Part shown: piece after piece, positions 4,011 through 59,162 of the stretch
How positions within the stretch are numbered: position 1 is the stretch's first letter
Layout: each line of letters begins with the position of its first letter
Source of the DNA: Pelagibacteraceae bacterium AG-430-F16
GTDB taxonomy: Bacteria; Pseudomonadota; Alphaproteobacteria; Pelagibacterales; Pelagibacteraceae
Reading direction: 5' to 3'
DNA: 64,000 nt
Assembly (NCBI GenBank): GCA_003213015.1
Contig: QCOG01000001.1
Location: 124,001-188,000, forward strand
Position numbers and translations under genes: made by a program
Notes under the pieces: model-generated
The model's input: the letters and a program-made list of their open reading frames with translations, nothing else
What the model was told of the DNA's origin: nothing
Databases searched by the model: none

Positions 4011-4733
4011 ATGGCAGGACATTCTCATTGGGCTGGTATAAAACATAAAAAAGGTAGAGCAGACAAAGAAAGGTCGAAGATTTTCTCGAAACTTTCTAGA
4101 GAGATTACTGTAGCTGCTAAACTTGGAGATAAAGATCCTTTGATGAACCCGAGACTTAGATCTGCTATTCAAGCAGCAAGATCGTCAAACATGCCAAAAG
4201 ATAACATTGAAAGAGCCATTGATAAATCGAAATCATTAAATCAATCAAATTTTGAAAAGATAAGATACGAAGGTTTTGGTAAAGATAAAGTTGCTATAAT
4301 TGTAGAGGCACTTACAGATAACAAAAATAGAACTGCCTCAAAAATAAGAACTATTTTTCAAAAAAATGGTGGTAATTTGGGTGCCCAAGGTTCTGCAGCC
4401 CATAACTTTAAACAAATTGGCGTAATTAGGATAGACATAAATGAAATTAAAGACAATAAAATTTTTGAACTAGCAATTGATGCTGGTGCAGATGAATGCT
4501 TCTCCTTTGAAAATTTTCATGAGATACATTGCGGCTTTGAAGATATTTACTCTATAAAAAAAAAAATTGAGCCTCATGTTGAAAATTTTATATCTACAGA
4601 TATCGAGTGGATTCCACTAAACAAGGTTTCCAGCGAAAGTGAGAATAAAGAAGACATAAAAAAACTTATAGAATTATTAGATGATGACGATGATGTTCAA
4701 AGGGTTTACTCGAACTTTGGGGAAGAAGATTAA
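4011..4733 (+). CDS. yebC: YebC/PmpR family regulatory protein
   Basis: MAGHSHWAGIKHKKGRADKERSKIFSKLSREI; NMPKDNIERAI. Confidence 0.95.
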   Translation: MAGHSHWAGIKHKKGRADKERSKIFSKLSREITVAAKLGDKDPLMNPRLRSAIQAARSSNMPKDNIERAIDKSKSLNQSNFEKIRYEGFGKDKVAIIVEALTDNKNRTASKIRTIFQKNGGNLGAQGSAAHNFKQIGVIRIDINEIKDNKIFELAIDAGADECFSFENFHEIHCGFEDIYSIKKKIEPHVENFISTDIEWIPLNKVSSESENKEDIKKLIELLDDDDDVQRVYSNFGEED

Positions 4734-4736
4734 GCA

Positions 4737-5225
4737 ATGTTAATAATTGGAATAGATCCAGGGATTAATGGTGCTATATGCTTATTTAAAGATGGAAAAG
4801 TAGTGGATGTATTTGAAATGCCAAAAATGGCTGTAGGAAAAAAAAATAAATCTCAAGTTAATGCATCTCAAATATTTAACGAAATTCAAAAAGCTGTAGA
4901 AGGAGAAGATAAGACGAAAGTAATGGCTGTGATCGAACAAGTTTCTGCAATGCCAGGACAAGGAGTTACTAGCATGTTTAATTTTGGACAGTCTTTTGGA
5001 GTGTTGAAAGGAATTTTTTCTGCAATGCAAATCCCAATGGATTTTGTTTCGCCAGTTAAATGGAAAAAATTCTTTAATTTGATAAATACAAACAAAGACG
5101 CTAGCAGGACAAAAGCTATTGAAATTTATCCATACTTTTCCTCAAAATTGTCAAAAAAAAAAGATACTAATAAAGCGGATGCGATACTAATTTCTAGTTT
5201 TTATTACCAAAACGCTAAATATTAG
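4737..5225 (+). CDS. RuvC-like Holliday junction resolvase, phage-type variant
   Basis: MLIIGIDPGINGAICLF...VIEQVSAMPGQGVTSMFNFGQSFGVLKG...VKWKKFF...SRTKAIEIYP...KKDTNKADAILIS; RNase H-like acidic residues retained; lies in the usual ruvC position. Confidence 0.8.
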   Translation: MLIIGIDPGINGAICLFKDGKVVDVFEMPKMAVGKKNKSQVNASQIFNEIQKAVEGEDKTKVMAVIEQVSAMPGQGVTSMFNFGQSFGVLKGIFSAMQIPMDFVSPVKWKKFFNLINTNKDASRTKAIEIYPYFSSKLSKKKDTNKADAILISSFYYQNAKY

Positions 5226-48197: not shown

Positions 48198-49060
48198 AAA
48201 AAATTATAATCTTAATTCCAGTTTACAACGATTGGCAGTCTCTTGAAAAGCTTATCGAGGATATAAATTTTAAAGTAAAAAATATTAACTGCAAGTTCTC
48301 AATCTTTGTAATCAATGATGGTTCAACTGAGAAATATGAAGATAAAAAATTTTCTACTGAGGAGATAAAAGTTGAAGTGATCAGTTTATTAAAAAATGTT
48401 GGACATACAAGATCCATTGCGACTGGTTTGAAGTATATCTATGAAAAAGAGGATTTTGACTTTGTAATTCCAATGGATGGTGACGGGGAGGACAGACCAG
48501 ATGAAATTAGTAAATTTATAGAAAGCACAGATTATTACGTTGAAAAAGCAATAGTGGGTGAAAGAATTAAAAGATCCGAAGGATCAATTTTTACTTTTTT
48601 TTATGTAGTCCATAAATTCTTGACATATTTTTTTACTGGAAAAAGTATTAAATTTGGAAATTTCACTTGTTTGCCTAAATCAGTGATCAAAAAATTTATT
48701 ATTGAAAAATCATCCTGGAATAGTTTTTCTGGATCGCTTGTTAAAATTGAAAAAAGTTTTGGATCCATTAAATCAATCAGAGGTAAACGTTATTTTGGGC
48801 CATCGAAAATGAGTTTTATAAATCTAGTTAAACACAGTTTATCCATCATTTCTGTTTTTAAGTTTAATGTTATTACAAGATCAATTTTATTTTTTGTAAT
48901 TTATTTTGCCATCATAAATAAAAATATTTCATTTGTTACTATCTTTCCTCTATTTTTACTTATCCTATTTTTATTTATTATTTTTAACTTATCCAATAGA
49001 GAAAACATCAAAGAATTCGATGCTTCACTCTCAAACATAGAAGATGTACGTCCGCACTAG
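48194..49060 (+). CDS. Family 2 glycosyltransferase (DPM1/ArnC-like) with C-terminal TM region
   Basis: [49 protein letters not shown]. Confidence 0.88.
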
Positions 49061-50337
49061 TTTGCCATTATTTTAGGCAAAGAATAAAAATCTGCAGTAT
49101 CAATTTTTGAGGAGTATTGTCTTCTCATACTCCATTTTTTATTTATCCCTGCACTTGCCAAGCTAATTGTTGATCTTCCATATCTGTAGTTAGTGCTATC
49201 AATAGATTGCATTAAGTTTTTAATTCTTTCATCTTTTGTAGACTTAAACAAACTATTTCCTTTTTCAGAGTCAGATAAACCCGATAAAATTATACCAGCT
49301 TTTTGATATTTGAATCCATCTTTATATATTAGATCGAGACCTATAAGAGCATTTTTAACTATTTCAATACTATTATTTGTTGCAATAGGAAAATCAATTG
49401 TCTTTGAATTTGAATAGAATATACCTTTATTTTGAAAAGGACTTGTTCTTATAAAAACTGTAATAGATTTACATACTAGCGACTCAGATCTAATTTTTTC
49501 TGCTGCATTTAAACAGTAGCTTGTTACAGATTCTTTCAGTTCTCTGGGTTTTTCTACTTTCTGTCCAAATGATCTCGATACACAACAACTTTTTCTTTTT
49601 GTTTGTTTGGTTTCAATTTCAATACAAGGAACACCTCTAAGCTCCATAGCAGTTCTTGAACTAAGAACATTTTTTGTTTTTTTGATCCAAGTGTTAGAAG
49701 CGTTTTTTAATTGTTTTGCATTATAAATTCCGTTTTTGATATAAAATTTTGAGAGTTGTTTTCCAACTCCCCATATATCTCTTACTTCAACCTTTTCTAA
49801 TATTGGGTCTAAATCCTTAATATTGACCAAACTTACAACACCTGACTTCTGTTTTTTTGCTATATGATTTGCAACTTTGCTCAAGGTTTTGGTTTCAGCT
49901 ATTCCGATACTAGTTGGTATACCAGTCCATTGTAAAACAGTATTTCTAATTTCTTTACCAACATCTTTTACTTCTTTATCTGAAAAATTAGACAAATCTA
50001 AAAAAGCTTCATCAATAGAATAAACTTCTATTTTTGAGTTAAATCTTTTTAGTGTTCGCATCACTCTTCGTGATATGTCTCCATATAGAGAATAGTTCGA
50101 AGAAAATACCTGAACATTATTTTTTATAATAATATTTCTTGCTTTAAAATAAGGCTCTCCCATTTTAATTCCTAAGGCTTTAGCTTCGTTAGATCTTGAT
50201 ATTATACATCCGTCATTATTAGAAAGAACTACCACAGGTAGCCTTCTTATTTTTGGGTTGAATAATCTTTCACAAGAAACATAGAAAGAATTACAATCTA
50301 TCAATGCAATTTTTTTAGTATACAGAGTGGATGACAT
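49057..50337 (-). CDS. umuC: DNA polymerase V subunit UmuC
   Basis: [64 protein letters not shown]. Confidence 0.95.
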
Positions 50338-50710
50338 AAGTTACGACCCCCCAAACAAAAACATCTGCTTCTTCATTTATTAAAATTCTATCCTCAAATT
50401 TTTTAGATCCAGAGGTTAGAAATTGTTTATTGTTTTCTTTGACAAAACTTTTAACAACAAGTTCGTCATGAACATTCGCTATAACGGTGGAAAAGTTTTT
50501 AGGCTTTAGGCTTTTGTCTACAACTAATAGATCTCCGTCATAAATTCCAGCGTTGACCATAGATTTTCCCTGTACCCTAATTATAAATGTTGCAGGAACA
50601 TTTTTTATGAGGTGAACATTTAGATCTATATCTTCCTCAATGTAGTCCGTAGCTGGCGAAGGAAAACCTGCTCCAGCTTTGTGCAAATAATAGGGTATAG
50701 TTAGCTTCAT
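50315..50710 (-). CDS. umuD: UmuD-like S24 autopeptidase
   Basis: [56 protein letters not shown]; overlaps umuC. Confidence 0.93.
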
Positions 50711-50879: not shown

Positions 50880-51251
50880 ATGAAAAAATTAACGTGTCAC
50901 TGCGGAGAGATAGAAATAAAAATTAAATTAAAAGGAAAATCAAATGATTATTACAGATGTAACTGCTCTATTTGTAAAAGAAAAGGCTCTATAACAACAA
51001 TAGTGGATAAGGAAGATTTGGAAATAGTTAAGGGTGCAGAAAAAATTAAATTTTACCAATTCAATACAAAAGCTGCAAAGCACTTTTTTTGTTCAGTCTG
51101 CGGAATAAATACTCATAATTTGAGAAGGAGTGATCCAAATACATATGGAGTAAACGTTGGATGTTTGGAAGATATCTCAACTAAAGAATTATTTGAACTT
51201 AAGGTAAGAGTTAATGATGGTAAAAATCACAAGATGGATAGAATTGAATAA
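50880..51251 (+). CDS. GFA/CENP-V-like (Mss4-fold) zinc protein, copy 1
   Basis: LTCHCGEIEIKIK; YRCNCSICKRKGS; HFFCSVCGINTHN. Confidence 0.88.
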   Translation: MKKLTCHCGEIEIKIKLKGKSNDYYRCNCSICKRKGSITTIVDKEDLEIVKGAEKIKFYQFNTKAAKHFFCSVCGINTHNLRRSDPNTYGVNVGCLEDISTKELFELKVRVNDGKNHKMDRIE

Positions 51252-51622
51252 TGATTAAAAAATTAACATGCCATTGTGGTGAAGTTGAAGCTGAAGTAAA
51301 GATACCTGAAACAGGTATTGAAAAATTCATGAGATGCAATTGCTCTTTATGTAAAAGAAAAGGATACATAATTGGTGTAGTAGGGGAAAATGATTTCAAA
51401 TTAATTAAAGGTGAGAAAATATTGAAACTTTATCAATATTATACAAAAGTTGCCAAACACTATTTCTGTTCTATATGTGGTATTCATACTCACAATAGAC
51501 CAAGAATTAATCCAAAAATTTATGGAATAAACATTGCATGTATTGACGACATAGATACTTTTGCTTTAAAAGATGTTCCAGTCAATAATGGTGAAAACCA
51601 CCCATTAGACCAAAAAAAATAA
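51251..51622 (+). CDS. GFA/CENP-V-like (Mss4-fold) zinc protein, copy 2
   Basis: LTCHCGEVEAEVK; MRCNCSLCKRKGY; HYFCSICGIHTHN; tandem paralog of the preceding gene. Confidence 0.88.
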   Translation: MIKKLTCHCGEVEAEVKIPETGIEKFMRCNCSLCKRKGYIIGVVGENDFKLIKGEKILKLYQYYTKVAKHYFCSICGIHTHNRPRINPKIYGINIACIDDIDTFALKDVPVNNGENHPLDQKK

Positions 51623-53947: not shown

Positions 53948-55072
53948 ATGACAAAAAATAATTTAAAAGTGGTCAAATCAGCAAAAGATAAAGATTTGGA
54001 AAATAAAGAAAAAAACAAAGCTCTAGACGCAGCTATCAGTCAAATTACTGATAATTATGGAAAAGGTTCCGTAATGAAGCTTGGCCAAAAAAAAGCTATG
54101 GATATAGAGTCTATTTCTACAGGCTCTCTAAGCTTAGATTTAGCGCTAGGTATTGGTGGATTACCAAAAGGAAGAATTGTCGAAATTTATGGTCCAGAGT
54201 CTTCTGGAAAAACAACACTTGCTCTTCAAGTAGTTGCTGAAGCTCAAAAATCTGGTGGAATATGTGCATTCGTTGATGCAGAGCATGCTTTAGATCCGGT
54301 ATATGCAAAAAAATTAGGTGTAAATACAGAGGAATTACTAATTTCTCAACCTGATGCTGGTGAGCAAGCATTAGAGATAGCAGACACACTTGTTAAGTCA
54401 GGTTCTATTTCTGTAATAGTTATTGACTCAGTTGCAGCATTAACACCAAGAGCTGAAATTGAAGGGGACATGGGTGATCATCACGTAGGTCTTCAATCAA
54501 GATTAATGAGTCAGGCTTTAAGAAAATTAACTAGTTCAATATCAAATACAAACACAATGATGATTTTCATTAACCAAATCAGAATGAAAATAGGTGTTAT
54601 GTTTGGAAGTCCTGAAACTACATCAGGTGGAAATGCATTAAAATTCTACTCATCTGTAAGAATGGATATTAGAAGAATTGGTGCGATAAAAGATAAAGAT
54701 GCAATCATTGGTAACTCTACAAGAGTTAAGGTTGTTAAAAACAAAGTATCTCCACCATTTAAAGTGGTTGAGTTTGATCTAATGTATGGAAAAGGAATTA
54801 GTAAAGTAGGTGAATTAATTGACCTTGGTGCAAAAGCAGAGATTGTTGAAAAATCTGGTGCTTGGTATGCGTACAAAGGTGAGAAAATTGGCCAAGGAAG
54901 AGAAAATGCCAAAATCTACTTAGAACAAAATCCAAAAGTTGCCGCTGAAATAGAGATGGCAATTAGAGAAAAAGCAGGTGTGATTACTAAAAAAATCGAA
55001 GGTAACCCACTTGATCAGGAGAAAATAGAAGCGAGCCAAAAAGAAGAGACTCCTCCTGCAAAAAAGAATTAG
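53948..55072 (+). CDS. recA: Recombinase RecA
   Basis: [47 protein letters not shown]-type core. Confidence 0.99.
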
Positions 55073-55096
55073 CTAAATAGTCATTATTAGTTAAGA

Positions 55097-55123
55097 AAAG
55101 GCGCTGTAACAGGCGCCTTTTTC
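55097..55123 (+). terminator. Rho-independent terminator after recA
   Basis: AAAGGCGC-TGTAACAG-GCGCCTTT followed by short T run. Confidence 0.85.
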
Positions 55124-55135
55124 CCCTTGTAGATT

Positions 55136-55948
55136 TTAATTAAATTTTTTTTTACCTTTGTTCCAAGGAATTCTACCTTTCATGGAAAAGGACATTTTAC
55201 GTCTTGCTTCTAGTGATTGGGTTGAACCTCTTCGATAAGTATTACCTTTCATTTTTTCAGACAGTTTTTTTAATTGCTCTTTTCCATAAACTCCAGTTTT
55301 GCCTTTATGCCAGGGCACCCTACCTTTAGATGCTTTTGACATTTTTTTTAATGTTGTTTTTGAATAAATTCCTTTTTTTCCTTTGTTCCAAGGTATATGT
55401 CCCATGTGAGATTTTGATAGGTTTTTCAAATGTTTTTTACTAAATCTTATACCTTTCCTGGACAATGACATTTTCTTTTTTGATTTATTGGAATGTTTTT
55501 GTCCTTTGAATCCTTTGTGGTTTTTTTTCAATTTTTGTTTTTGAGTCTCCGTGTGTGGAATACCTTTATTCCAAGCTGGGGAGTTACCCTTTTTTGTTTT
55601 TGATATTTTTTTTTTAGTTTGGGGTGTATGAATAATTTGAGGAAATGCAGATGTATTAAGCCACTTTTTACTTTTGATTATTTTTTTATTAAAATTTAGT
55701 TCGTATAAAATTGCCTCCTTTTTTGAATTAAACGTATAAACAGGCTTATACTCAAAATTTTTAGGATTTTTGCTAAATGCCTTTTTTAATTTAGGATTAC
55801 TGCTAAAATATTCTTTACCTAGATCATCAAAAGGTGTTCTATTTTTATGTGTATTTCTCCACCTTACGCCAAAATATCTTAATCCAGTTGATTTGTTCTT
55901 TATGATGTAAACATAAGGTTTTACTTTATTAAATTCCTTACTTCTCAT
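55136..55948 (-). CDS. NUMOD3-repeat, GIY-YIG-like putative free-standing homing endonuclease
   Basis: N-terminus PYVYIIKNKSTGLRYFGVRW...KKEAILYELNFNK; repeated IPWNKGK/VPWHKGK/SPAWNKG motifs with KKMS/KKLS helices, Lys-rich. Confidence 0.75.
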   Translation of the reverse strand: MRSKEFNKVKPYVYIIKNKSTGLRYFGVRWRNTHKNRTPFDDLGKEYFSSNPKLKKAFSKNPKNFEYKPVYTFNSKKEAILYELNFNKKIIKSKKWLNTSAFPQIIHTPQTKKKISKTKKGNSPAWNKGIPHTETQKQKLKKNHKGFKGQKHSNKSKKKMSLSRKGIRFSKKHLKNLSKSHMGHIPWNKGKKGIYSKTTLKKMSKASKGRVPWHKGKTGVYGKEQLKKLSEKMKGNTYRRGSTQSLEARRKMSFSMKGRIPWNKGKKKFN

Positions 55949-56328
55949 TCATCTTTTTTATTTTTTGGGAAACGGATTACATTATTAAACCTTTCCCCAC
56001 CTTGATTTAAAGTTGACATTATTTCTCTCGCAGCCTCTTGCCTCTTTTTATATTGAATTGGATCTTTGTCTGCTTCTTGTTGTTCTGAACTTTTAGGGGT
56101 GCCCATTATATAACTATGGATAAAACTTTCTTTTGGGCCTGATTGTTTGTGTATTTTGTTAACGAGGCTCTGTATCCAATTTTCTAAATCTGATAAATAA
56201 TCTAATTTCGACAGACTATCCCAATTGTCGAAATTTCCAGTCATTTTAATATTAAAATCTCCACTTTTTTTTGTATCTAACTCACCAAATTCATCATCCC
56301 ATATAGTTTTAATATCTACTTTTTTCAT
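55945..56328 (-). CDS. Uncharacterised 127-aa protein coupled to the NUMOD3 endonuclease gene
   Basis: ORF with 4-bp ATGA-type overlap with the downstream gene; no family recognised. Confidence 0.65.
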   Translation of the reverse strand: MKKVDIKTIWDDEFGELDTKKSGDFNIKMTGNFDNWDSLSKLDYLSDLENWIQSLVNKIHKQSGPKESFIHSYIMGTPKSSEQQEADKDPIQYKKRQEAAREIMSTLNQGGERFNNVIRFPKNKKDE

Positions 56329-56495
56329 ATTTTCTTTCTCCTGTTATATAAATAAACTTACCAAAATCTTTTTAAGTTAGCTATTTGATTTATCATTAAA
56401 GATTAAGTCAATGTTCAACTTATTTTTTGAATTATTGACAAAATCAGCAACTCCTTAAATATAGACATCATTTAAAAAAGCTGTATTTTAAAAAT

Positions 56496-59162
56496 ATGGC
56501 TCAAAAAACCTTAAATGAAATAAGAAATACTTTTCTCAAATATTTTGAGAAAAATGATCATAAAATAGTTGAGTCTAGCAACTTAGTTCCTAATAACGAC
56601 CCGACGTTAATGTTTGCAAATTCTGGAATGGTCCAGTTCAAAAATGTTTTTACTGGATTAGAAAAAAGAGATTACAAAAGAGCCACAACTTCACAAAAAT
56701 GCGTTAGAGCAGGCGGTAAACATAATGATTTAGAAAATGTTGGATATACTCCAAGACACCATACTTTTTTTGAAATGCTTGGAAACTTTTCTTTTGGAGA
56801 TTACTTTAAAGAAAGAGCAATTGAACTTGCGTGGAACTTAATAACTAAAGATTTTGGATTAGATAAAAATAGACTTTATTTTACTGTTTTTAATGAAGAC
56901 GAAGAAGCATTTAAACTTTGGAAAAAAATATCAGGCTTAGATGAAAATAGAATAATAAAAATTTCTACCTCAGATAACTTTTGGTCAATGGGTGAAACAG
57001 GTCCATGTGGACCTTGTTCTGAGATTTTTTATGATCATGGAGATCATTTAAAAGGTGGGCTACCCGGAAGCAAAGACCAAGATGGGGATAGATATATTGA
57101 GATATGGAACTTAGTTTTTATGCAATATGAACAAGTTTCAAAAGATAAAAGAATAGATTTGCCTAAACCTTCAGTAGATACAGGTATGGGTCTTGAGAGA
57201 ATGGCAGCTCTTCTTCAAGGTACACATGATAATTATAAAACTGACCATTTTTTAAAATTAATAAATTCGATCTCTGAAACTGTAAAAGTAAAACCTGATG
57301 AAAATAATTTATCAAGTTTTAGAGTGATAGCTGATCACTTAAGGGCAAGTTCGTTTCTACTCGCCGAAGGTGTGTTACCATCTAATGAAGGAAGAGGCTA
57401 TGTACTTAGAAGAATTATGAGAAGAGGAATGAGACACTCACATTTACTAGGATCTAAAGAACCAATTTTTTTCAATATTTTTAAAACTCTTTTAGATGAA
57501 ATGTCTAAAAATTATCCAGAATTAAAAAGAGCAGAGTCACTTATCAAAGAAACTTTAAAAATGGAGGAAGAAAAATTTTTAGTTTTATTAGAAAGAGGTA
57601 TGAAAATTTTAGATGATGAAATCTCAAAAATAGACAAGGTCCTTCCTGGTGAGGTTGCTTTCAAACTTTATGATACTTACGGATTTCCGTTAGATTTAAC
57701 TGAAGACATTCTTAAGAACAAATCTCTTCAAGTAGATAACAATAAATTTGATGAGATGATGAGAAAAAGTAGGGAACTAGCAAAAAAGAATTGGAAAGGT
57801 TCAGGGGATAGTTCAGTCAGTGAAATTTGGTTTAATCTAAAAGAAAAAATCGGTCCCACTGAATTTTTAGGTTATGAGACTAATCAGGCTGAGGGAAGTG
57901 TTACTGCAATTATTAAAAATGATAAAGAAATTCAACAATTAAAAGAAGGCGAAGAAGGTCAAATTATTTTAAATCAAACTCCTTTTTATGGGGAGTCAGG
58001 TGGTCAAGTTGGTGACAAAGGAACAATAACTTCAGGTGAAAACGAATTCGAAGTAAACGACGTTCAAAAAAAGATTGGAAACTTATTTGTTCACTTTGGT
58101 AAAGTTTCAAAAGGCACAATTAAACTTAAAGATAATGTTGAACTAAAAATAAACTCAGAAAGACGTCAAAATATTAGATCTTATCACTCAGCAACGCATT
58201 TATTACATGAATCTCTTAGAAGAACTTTAGGAACACATGTAATGCAAAAAGGATCATTAGTTGCACCAGATAGATTAAGATTTGATTTTAGTCATATGAA
58301 ACCAATTACAGATGAAGAAATGAAAAAAATTGATGAAAATGTAAACAAGTTTGTAAACTCAAAAACGGAAGTTATTACACGATTAATGACTCCTGAGGAG
58401 GGTATTGAACAAGGGGCAATGGCTTTATTCGGAGAAAAATATGGAGATGAAGTTAGAGTTGTGTTTATGGGTGAAGAAGGTAACAAATATTTTTCAACAG
58501 AACTTTGTGGTGGAACACACGTAAAAAACACTGGTGAGGTTGGTAAATTTAAAGTAGTCAGTCAATCATCAATTGCAGCAGGCGTTAGAAGAGTTGAAGC
58601 ATTAAGAGATAAACAACTTGAAGAATATCTAAAGTCAAAAGATAAGATGTCCAGTTTGTCTTCTCAAAAAAATGAAGAAACTATCAAATCGCTATCGAGT
58701 GAAATCACCAAACTTGGAGGAAAACCAATTAAAAAATCAGATGACCTTAAGATTACAATTAAGGAGCTGACAAAACAATTAGATGAAATAACAGTAAAAA
58801 GTATTTTATCAGATAATAAAAAAAATATTGTTAAAGACCAAAATATTAAAAAGATAAATATAAGATTTCAAAAAATAGATGACCTACCTTTTAAAGAATT
58901 AAGAAGACTTGTTGATCAAGGCAAGAAAGATATCAAAGAGGGAATTGTAGTTATATATGCAATTAAAGATGATAAAATAGGTTTAGCAGTAGGAGTTACA
59001 GATACTTTAACTAAACAATACGATGCAATAAAATTTGTAAAATCTGGTTCAGAAATTCTTGGTGGAAAAGGTGGTGGAGGTAGATCTGATTTTGCCCAAG
59101 CTGGTGGAGTTCATTCAAACAAAATAGAAGAAAGTTTTGAAAAGATTAAAAGCTTAATTTAA
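56496..59162 (+). CDS. alaS: Alanyl-tRNA synthetase
   Basis: [59 protein letters not shown]. Confidence 0.99.

Follow-up and report, generated by a model that had tools for sequence, protein, structure and literature searches.

Free-standing GIY-YIG endonucleases of the T4 type (SegA to SegG; PF19835; phrog_314) carry an N-terminal GIY-YIG domain and NUMOD modules, and their intergenic, free-standing genes show presence/absence polymorphism. These features are shared by EN, an endonuclease gene that lies between recA and alaS in the window, by which we mean the whole 64,000-nucleotide stretch of SAR11 chromosome that was analyzed. Unlike the T4-type Seg genes, EN and its relatives reside in bacterial chromosomes, where they appear translationally coupled behind variable genes and where several lie at tRNA or tmRNA sites. 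EN also differs in that its score against the SegE profile is borderline, and all eight of its relatives fall under the Pfam cut-off for PF19835.

Tycheposon-like islands are small marine genomic islands at tRNA genes, i.e., tRNA-associated integrative elements that lack an integrase of their own, have duplicated tRNA parts, and carry defense-like cargo. EN cassettes resemble them in occurring at tRNA genes, in duplicating tRNA parts, and in carrying defense-like cargo. In contrast with these islands, however, no tyrosine recombinase was seen in the EN cassettes, the smallest of which hold two to four genes; EN adjoins the att-like end, and the window copy lies away from any tRNA gene.

A third point of comparison is the HEG-island, defined in ICP1-like phages as a region in which at least two HEGs flank essential genes; these HEGs have been proposed to mobilize the adjacent cargo, and their endonucleases undergo domain and repeat shuffling (Barth et al. 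2023, PMC10448857). EN cassettes likewise pair an endonuclease with adjacent cargo and have shuffled modules, but they consist of one EN and one small non-core cargo gene with sharp borders in a cellular genome; with a single EN per cassette, the cargo is not flanked by at least two HEGs. Both free-standing endonucleases of the GIY-YIG/NUMOD3 kind and cargo-bearing HEG-islands of phages are already known. In contrast, a full-text search of the open-access literature, a scope outside which subscription papers mostly fall, returned no description of an integrase-less chromosomal EN family in SAR11 in which each EN follows a single cargo gene that changes between sites, some of them at tRNA half-repeats.

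A two-gene insertion between recA and alaS

An earlier note on this DNA had described minus-strand ORFs of 127 and 270 amino acids that overlap by 4 bp between recA and alaS, and we found both exactly as claimed (Table 1). The ATGA shared by the P127 stop and the EN start makes translational coupling probable. Both ORFs far exceed the stop-free runs expected at about 30% GC. Codon-usage log-odds were by far the highest in the named frame of P127 (0.168, versus −0.115 and 0.011), and the named frame of EN was the only positive one (0.139, versus −0.054 and −0.073). When EN was compared with its 75%-identical relative at locus L048, dN was 0.16 and dS was 1.2 (dN/dS of about 0.14), which indicates that EN is under purifying selection. 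Given these ORF lengths, the codon usage, the Shine-Dalgarno-like sequence ahead of P127, and the purifying selection on EN, P127 and EN both look like real genes.

Table 1. Coordinates of features in the window (plain positions) and at loci of other SAR11 genomes (locus:positions)
Feature	Position	Strand	Basis
recA	53948-55072	+	TIGR02012
recA intrinsic terminator hairpin, adjoining the left junction	55095-55122	both	folding
Insert (about 1331 bp), in place of AAGAT (5 bp) at the empty site	55129-56459		alignment with empty sites
EN gene, 270 aa, putative SegE-type GIY-YIG + NUMOD3 endonuclease	55136-55948	-	Pfam and phrog_314 matches
NUMOD3 repeat array of EN, about residues 110-267, presumed DNA-binding	55148-55621	-	five NUMOD3 stretches
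GIY-YIG domain of EN, residues 1-98	55655-55948	-	alignments, predicted core, PDB matches
ATGA overlap of P127 stop and EN start, 4 bp	55945-55948	-	sequence
P127 gene, 127 aa, family unknown, cargo	55945-56328	-	without profile matches
AGGAGA, Shine-Dalgarno-like, upstream of P127	56337-56342	-	sequence
alaS	56496-59162	+	TIGR00344
CP76-like gene	L007:7073-7648
CP76-like gene	L051:4257-4793
CP76-like genes	L006:7182-7640 and 4455-4916
CP76-like gene	L182:2910-3359
CP76-like gene	L183:3083-3655
Small acidic ORF after EN	L007:8830-9033
Small acidic ORF after EN	L051:6746-6925
Small acidic ORF after EN	L171:2548-2739
Small acidic ORF after EN	L174:2548-2751
5'-half tRNA island	L051:4157-7056
5'-half tRNA island	G159 C1:91412-109621 (L167:11412-11488, L006:9583-9622)

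The recA-alaS site was empty in 29/29 other genomes of the genus examined, with an interval of mostly about 90 to 110 bp. The five nearest genomes, whose recA genes are 98.7 to 99.2% identical, carry the empty site and read CCCCTTAAGATTATAGAC, whereas the window reads CCCCTT, then 1,331 bp, and then TATAGAC. Alignment to the empty sites showed identity up to position 55128 and again from 56460, for a net gain of 1,326 bp. The recA terminator hairpin, which is also present in the empty sites, immediately precedes the left junction. Folding revealed this hairpin (−15.8 kcal/mol, z −3.7 on the plus strand; −14.6 kcal/mol, z −2.7 on the minus strand), which the terminator scan had missed, and its predicted minus-strand fold could end the EN transcript. 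The only sequence common to both junctions is CCTT, a microhomology. No tRNA remnant was found at the insertion when tRNAs and tmRNAs of 33 kinds were compared, and no direct tRNA or tmRNA repeat flanks the cassette. The insert contains two genes only, without a tyrosine integrase.

Relative to its close relatives, then, the P127-EN pair is a clean insertion, in keeping with the earlier proposal of a cassette inserted into a streamlined SAR11 genome. The same note had held that its reading would fail if the pair occupied this site in all SAR11 genomes or if the larger protein matched no nuclease; the empty sites and the matches described below clearly go the other way. The best explanation for the segment is a two-gene mobile cassette that was recently acquired.

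Elsewhere in the window, a UmuC/UmuD-like translesion polymerase operon (49057-50710) lies a few kilobases from recA and is adjoined by two tandem, similar 123-aa ORFs (50880-51622). The window's own genome also holds a partial copy of the thyX 3' end (G000 C3:64133-64285; 69% identical, with stops) ~2.2 kb from thyX itself, which possibly marks another insertion.

Family and predicted fold of EN

EN matched Pfam NUMOD3 in five stretches (E = 7.5e-13), and the motifs quoted in the earlier note are present. NUMOD3 modules have a DNA-binding role, on which the role presumed for the EN array is based. EN also clearly matched the PHROGs homing endonuclease family phrog_314 (E = 5.8e-13). Its borderline match to PF19835 (SegE_GIY-YIG) scored 22.5 bits in hmmscan (E = 1.4e-4; cut-off, 25) and 26.0 bits, above the cut-off, in the genome search. 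Searches of phage records with EN returned distant homing endonucleases only, PADLOC returned no match, and when the EN profile was searched against PDB sequences, the sole match was a chance one to flagellin.

A model of the N-terminal domain, predicted from five related sequences with moderate confidence (pLDDT 64, pTM 0.54), has a beta-beta-alpha-alpha-beta-alpha core. Its only confident PDB matches were to the I-TevI catalytic domain (1mk0 and 1ln0; Foldseek probability 1.00, E of about 0.01, TM 0.45 to 0.53), and many of its best viral matches are named GIY-YIG or Seg-like homing endonucleases. Residues Y14, Y25, G27, R29, E83, and N98 are invariant in 9/9 aligned sequences; all but G27 are the catalytic Tyr, Arg, Glu, and Asn positions. 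Alignment by eye placed Y14, Y25, E83, and N98 opposite Y6, Y17, E75, and N90 of I-TevI, while R29 lies nearer the YxG motif than I-TevI R27 does. Taken together, the Pfam and phrog_314 matches and the I-TevI-like predicted fold bear out the earlier suggestion of a NUMOD3 protein with a degenerate GIY-YIG domain. Judged from these profiles and this model, EN is probably a SegE-type nuclease of the GIY-YIG class that carries a NUMOD3 array and has a presumed cleavage activity.

EN relatives, their cargo genes, and their sites

EN is rare, since a profile search matched only 4/398 genomes, including the window's own and one with a weak C-terminal match. Using single-sequence searches, same-site comparisons, and a scan of genome_contigs (one genome per GTDB species), we collected eight full relatives in other SAR11 genomes, at loci L048, L049, L050, L051, L006, L007, L171, and L174 (the last four in genomes G159, G221, G479, and G437, respectively). 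They occupy six sites, or seven when the window is included. The gene upstream of EN is P127 in the window, a 422-aa trypsin-like protease in L048, a 236-aa unknown protein in L049, a 301-aa NucS_C-type nuclease-like protein in L050 (PADLOC PDC-S02, E = 7.8e-59), a 336-aa DUF4268 protein in L051 (PADLOC PDC-S11, E = 1.2e-110), an 80-aa membrane ORF in L006, and a small lipoprotein in L007, L171, and L174. On these PADLOC matches, the L051 and L050 cargos, both nuclease-like, are read as candidate anti-phage families. The nine ENs start −4 bp (one), +1 bp (five), +13 bp, +38 bp, and +57 bp after the stop of the upstream gene, and the junction often reads TAATATG. Since SAR11 genes are tightly packed, a short gap is weak evidence on its own; joint gain of cargo and EN is stronger. 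EN appears to be a portable gene at the tail of small mobile cassettes whose cargo varies.

Profile searches of P127 against Pfam, PHROGs, NCBIfam, and PADLOC were all negative. At E ≤ 1e-3, it had no relative among the order's 397 other genomes, nor in phages, plasmids, or genome_contigs, the last scanned by exact peptide patterns. Weak matches in SAR11, acyl-carrier-like and PilY1-like proteins among them, were dismissed as chance (E of 0.005 to 0.1 per genome across 398 genomes). The single-sequence structure model was uninformative (pLDDT 47). Given that EN relatives follow unrelated genes at other sites, P127 looks like cargo rather than an obligate partner of EN. Thus, of the roles that the earlier note had offered for this gene, cargo was supported and an antitoxin-like partner was not, nor was a dedicated partner. 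Any benefit from P127 is something we only infer.

Five of the seven EN sites lie beside duplicated or partial tRNA or tmRNA segments, the exceptions being the window and the L007 site (genus g8), which likewise has no flanking direct tRNA or tmRNA repeat. The breakpoints fall in the anticodon loop or at the 3' end. The chance of this proximity is about 4e-4 within 2 kb and about 1.5e-5 within 1 kb, the latter a rough estimate given that some EN sites are more than 1 kb from the tRNA part. Direct tRNA or tmRNA repeats flank the L049, L050, and L051 cassettes and the G159 island. In L049, 1,904 bp lie between 36-bp repeats of the tmRNA 3' end; their removal restores the empty site of G087 and G093, and the unit gained consists of the 236-aa cargo gene and EN, nothing else. 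In L050, the 301-aa gene and EN lie between 47-bp tRNA-Thr repeats; a further tRNA-Thr copy, the third and degraded, bounds a second cassette that is EN-less. In L051, a CP76-like gene, the cargo, and EN have a tRNA-Gly 5' half (nucleotides 1 to 39) on one side and a full tRNA-Gly on the other. In L006, an 18-kb island between a tRNA-Met 5' half (nucleotides 1 to 40) and a full tRNA-Met has EN at its end; G168 has an intact tRNA-Met at the corresponding place. L048 has a degraded 3' half of tRNA-Gly, and its flanking direct repeat is only partial. No integrase was recognized by eye in the ORF lists of the related cassettes, which were partly profile searched.

The g8 site, which has an ADP-ribosylglycohydrolase-like gene on one side and a 342-aa gene on the other, carries the cassette in G221, G437, and G479, lacks it in several relatives, and retains a scar in G470. 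Presence/absence polymorphism at a fixed site, with filled, empty, or scarred states in close relatives, was thus seen at both recA-alaS and g8. A comparison of G479 with G221 showed 98% identity for the CP76-like gene, 75% for the lipoprotein, and 38% for EN, making EN the fastest-turning part of the site. In its C-terminal array, the G437 EN shares 71% identity with the G159 EN, which lies at another site, versus 39% with the same-site G479 EN, which implies that EN modules are exchanged in place. A comparison of EN similarity with the sites did not support EN sequence as the determinant of where insertion occurs: the window and L048 ENs are 75% identical yet lie at unrelated sites with different cargo, and the same-site g8 ENs carry different NUMOD3 arrays.

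Several further features were observed around the cassettes. Divergently placed CP76-like (phage CII-type) genes adjoin several of them, the L007/L051 type being rare in its family, and in several cassettes the gene after EN is a small acidic ORF of about 60 to 67 aa with a DPDYDP-type motif. At L050:5620-5672, cargo and EN are separated by a truncated signal-peptide leader (MKKLLGIVVLGL...), and a similar mini-ORF lies just upstream of EN at L048:5963-5998. Several unrelated SAR11 genes (L050:4063; L080, L082, L088, L090, L092, and L096) begin with almost the same leader DNA, which may act as a shared recombination patch. In two SAR11 islands, the duplicated part of the tRNA is its 5' half rather than the 3' end that is usual, and the breakpoint falls within or beside the anticodon loop; neither showed an integrase.

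Explanations for the spread of EN cassettes

The simplest account, to which we assign a probability of roughly 0.5, is homing-type drive by EN with a hitchhiking upstream gene. EN would be an active-looking, free-standing GIY-YIG/NUMOD3 endonuclease of the homing type and P127 its coexpressed passenger. EN would most likely cut the DNA of genomes, whether incoming or resident, in which the cassette is missing or a rival cassette is present, and recombinational repair would then copy the cassette, such that EN and the gene directly upstream spread together. Over time, EN would be placed behind new cargo, and its NUMOD3 array would be swapped by recombination. The cleavage activity, its target, and the copying by repair are all presumed steps. 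We favor homing-style spread on the basis of the I-TevI-like predicted fold, the empty sites, the unrelated upstream genes, the joint gain, and the module swapping. Its main difficulty is that the site does not track EN sequence, since simple homing to its own site predicts otherwise. In addition, the tRNA-half repeats look like integrase attachment sites, which counts against homing, and EN is not needed for such insertions, because one of the two cassettes at the L050 tRNA-Thr lacks it.

These last observations fit a less probable but serious alternative, in which integrase-less cassettes are inserted at tRNA or tmRNA genes by a tyrosine recombinase acting in trans from a phage or larger island. 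EN would then be one gene of a shared pool, its nuclease serving anti-phage defense or competition between elements instead of homing. The partial tRNA or tmRNA copies at five of seven sites, the two cargos matching the phage-defense candidates PDC-S11 and PDC-S02, and the rapid turnover of EN at g8 are consistent with this idea, but the window and g8 sites are without a tRNA, and no integrase was seen among the ORFs listed near the cassettes. EN also lacks a PADLOC match, and the named proteins to which it is most closely related are homing endonucleases of phages. We consider it unlikely that a lone selfish HEG arrived at recA-alaS through illegitimate recombination and brought a bystander gene along, with the P127 pairing and the neighbor pattern meaning little. 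The CCTT microhomology is all that the window junctions share, and dense SAR11 gene packing would by itself produce short upstream gaps; however, the upstream gene and EN were gained together, relative to the empty site, in both L049 and the window, and the g8 cassette behaves likewise. A dedicated P127-EN two-component system, whether toxin-antitoxin or a two-gene restriction-like defense, is highly improbable. The 4-bp overlap and joint presence would suit it, but all other ENs have different upstream genes, P127 was found nowhere else, and its model is uninformative; no conserved partner gene for a toxin-antitoxin pair was found, as the gene upstream of EN differs from site to site.

A bolder reading, which we regard as doubtful, places EN in the role of an integrase: reprogrammable GIY-YIG/NUMOD3 nucleases would drive the insertion and exchange of one-gene cargo cassettes at SAR11 tRNA genes and intergenic spots, several of the cargos being candidate anti-phage genes. 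If true, these cassettes would be a cellular counterpart of phage HEG-islands.

SAR11 bacteria are among the most abundant in the ocean, and their genomes are streamlined and poor in recognized mobile elements. EN cassettes extend the HEG-plus-cargo idea from phages to chromosomes, and an endonuclease that recurs behind variable, sometimes defense-like genes offers a concrete and testable vehicle for strain-specific gene turnover in SAR11.
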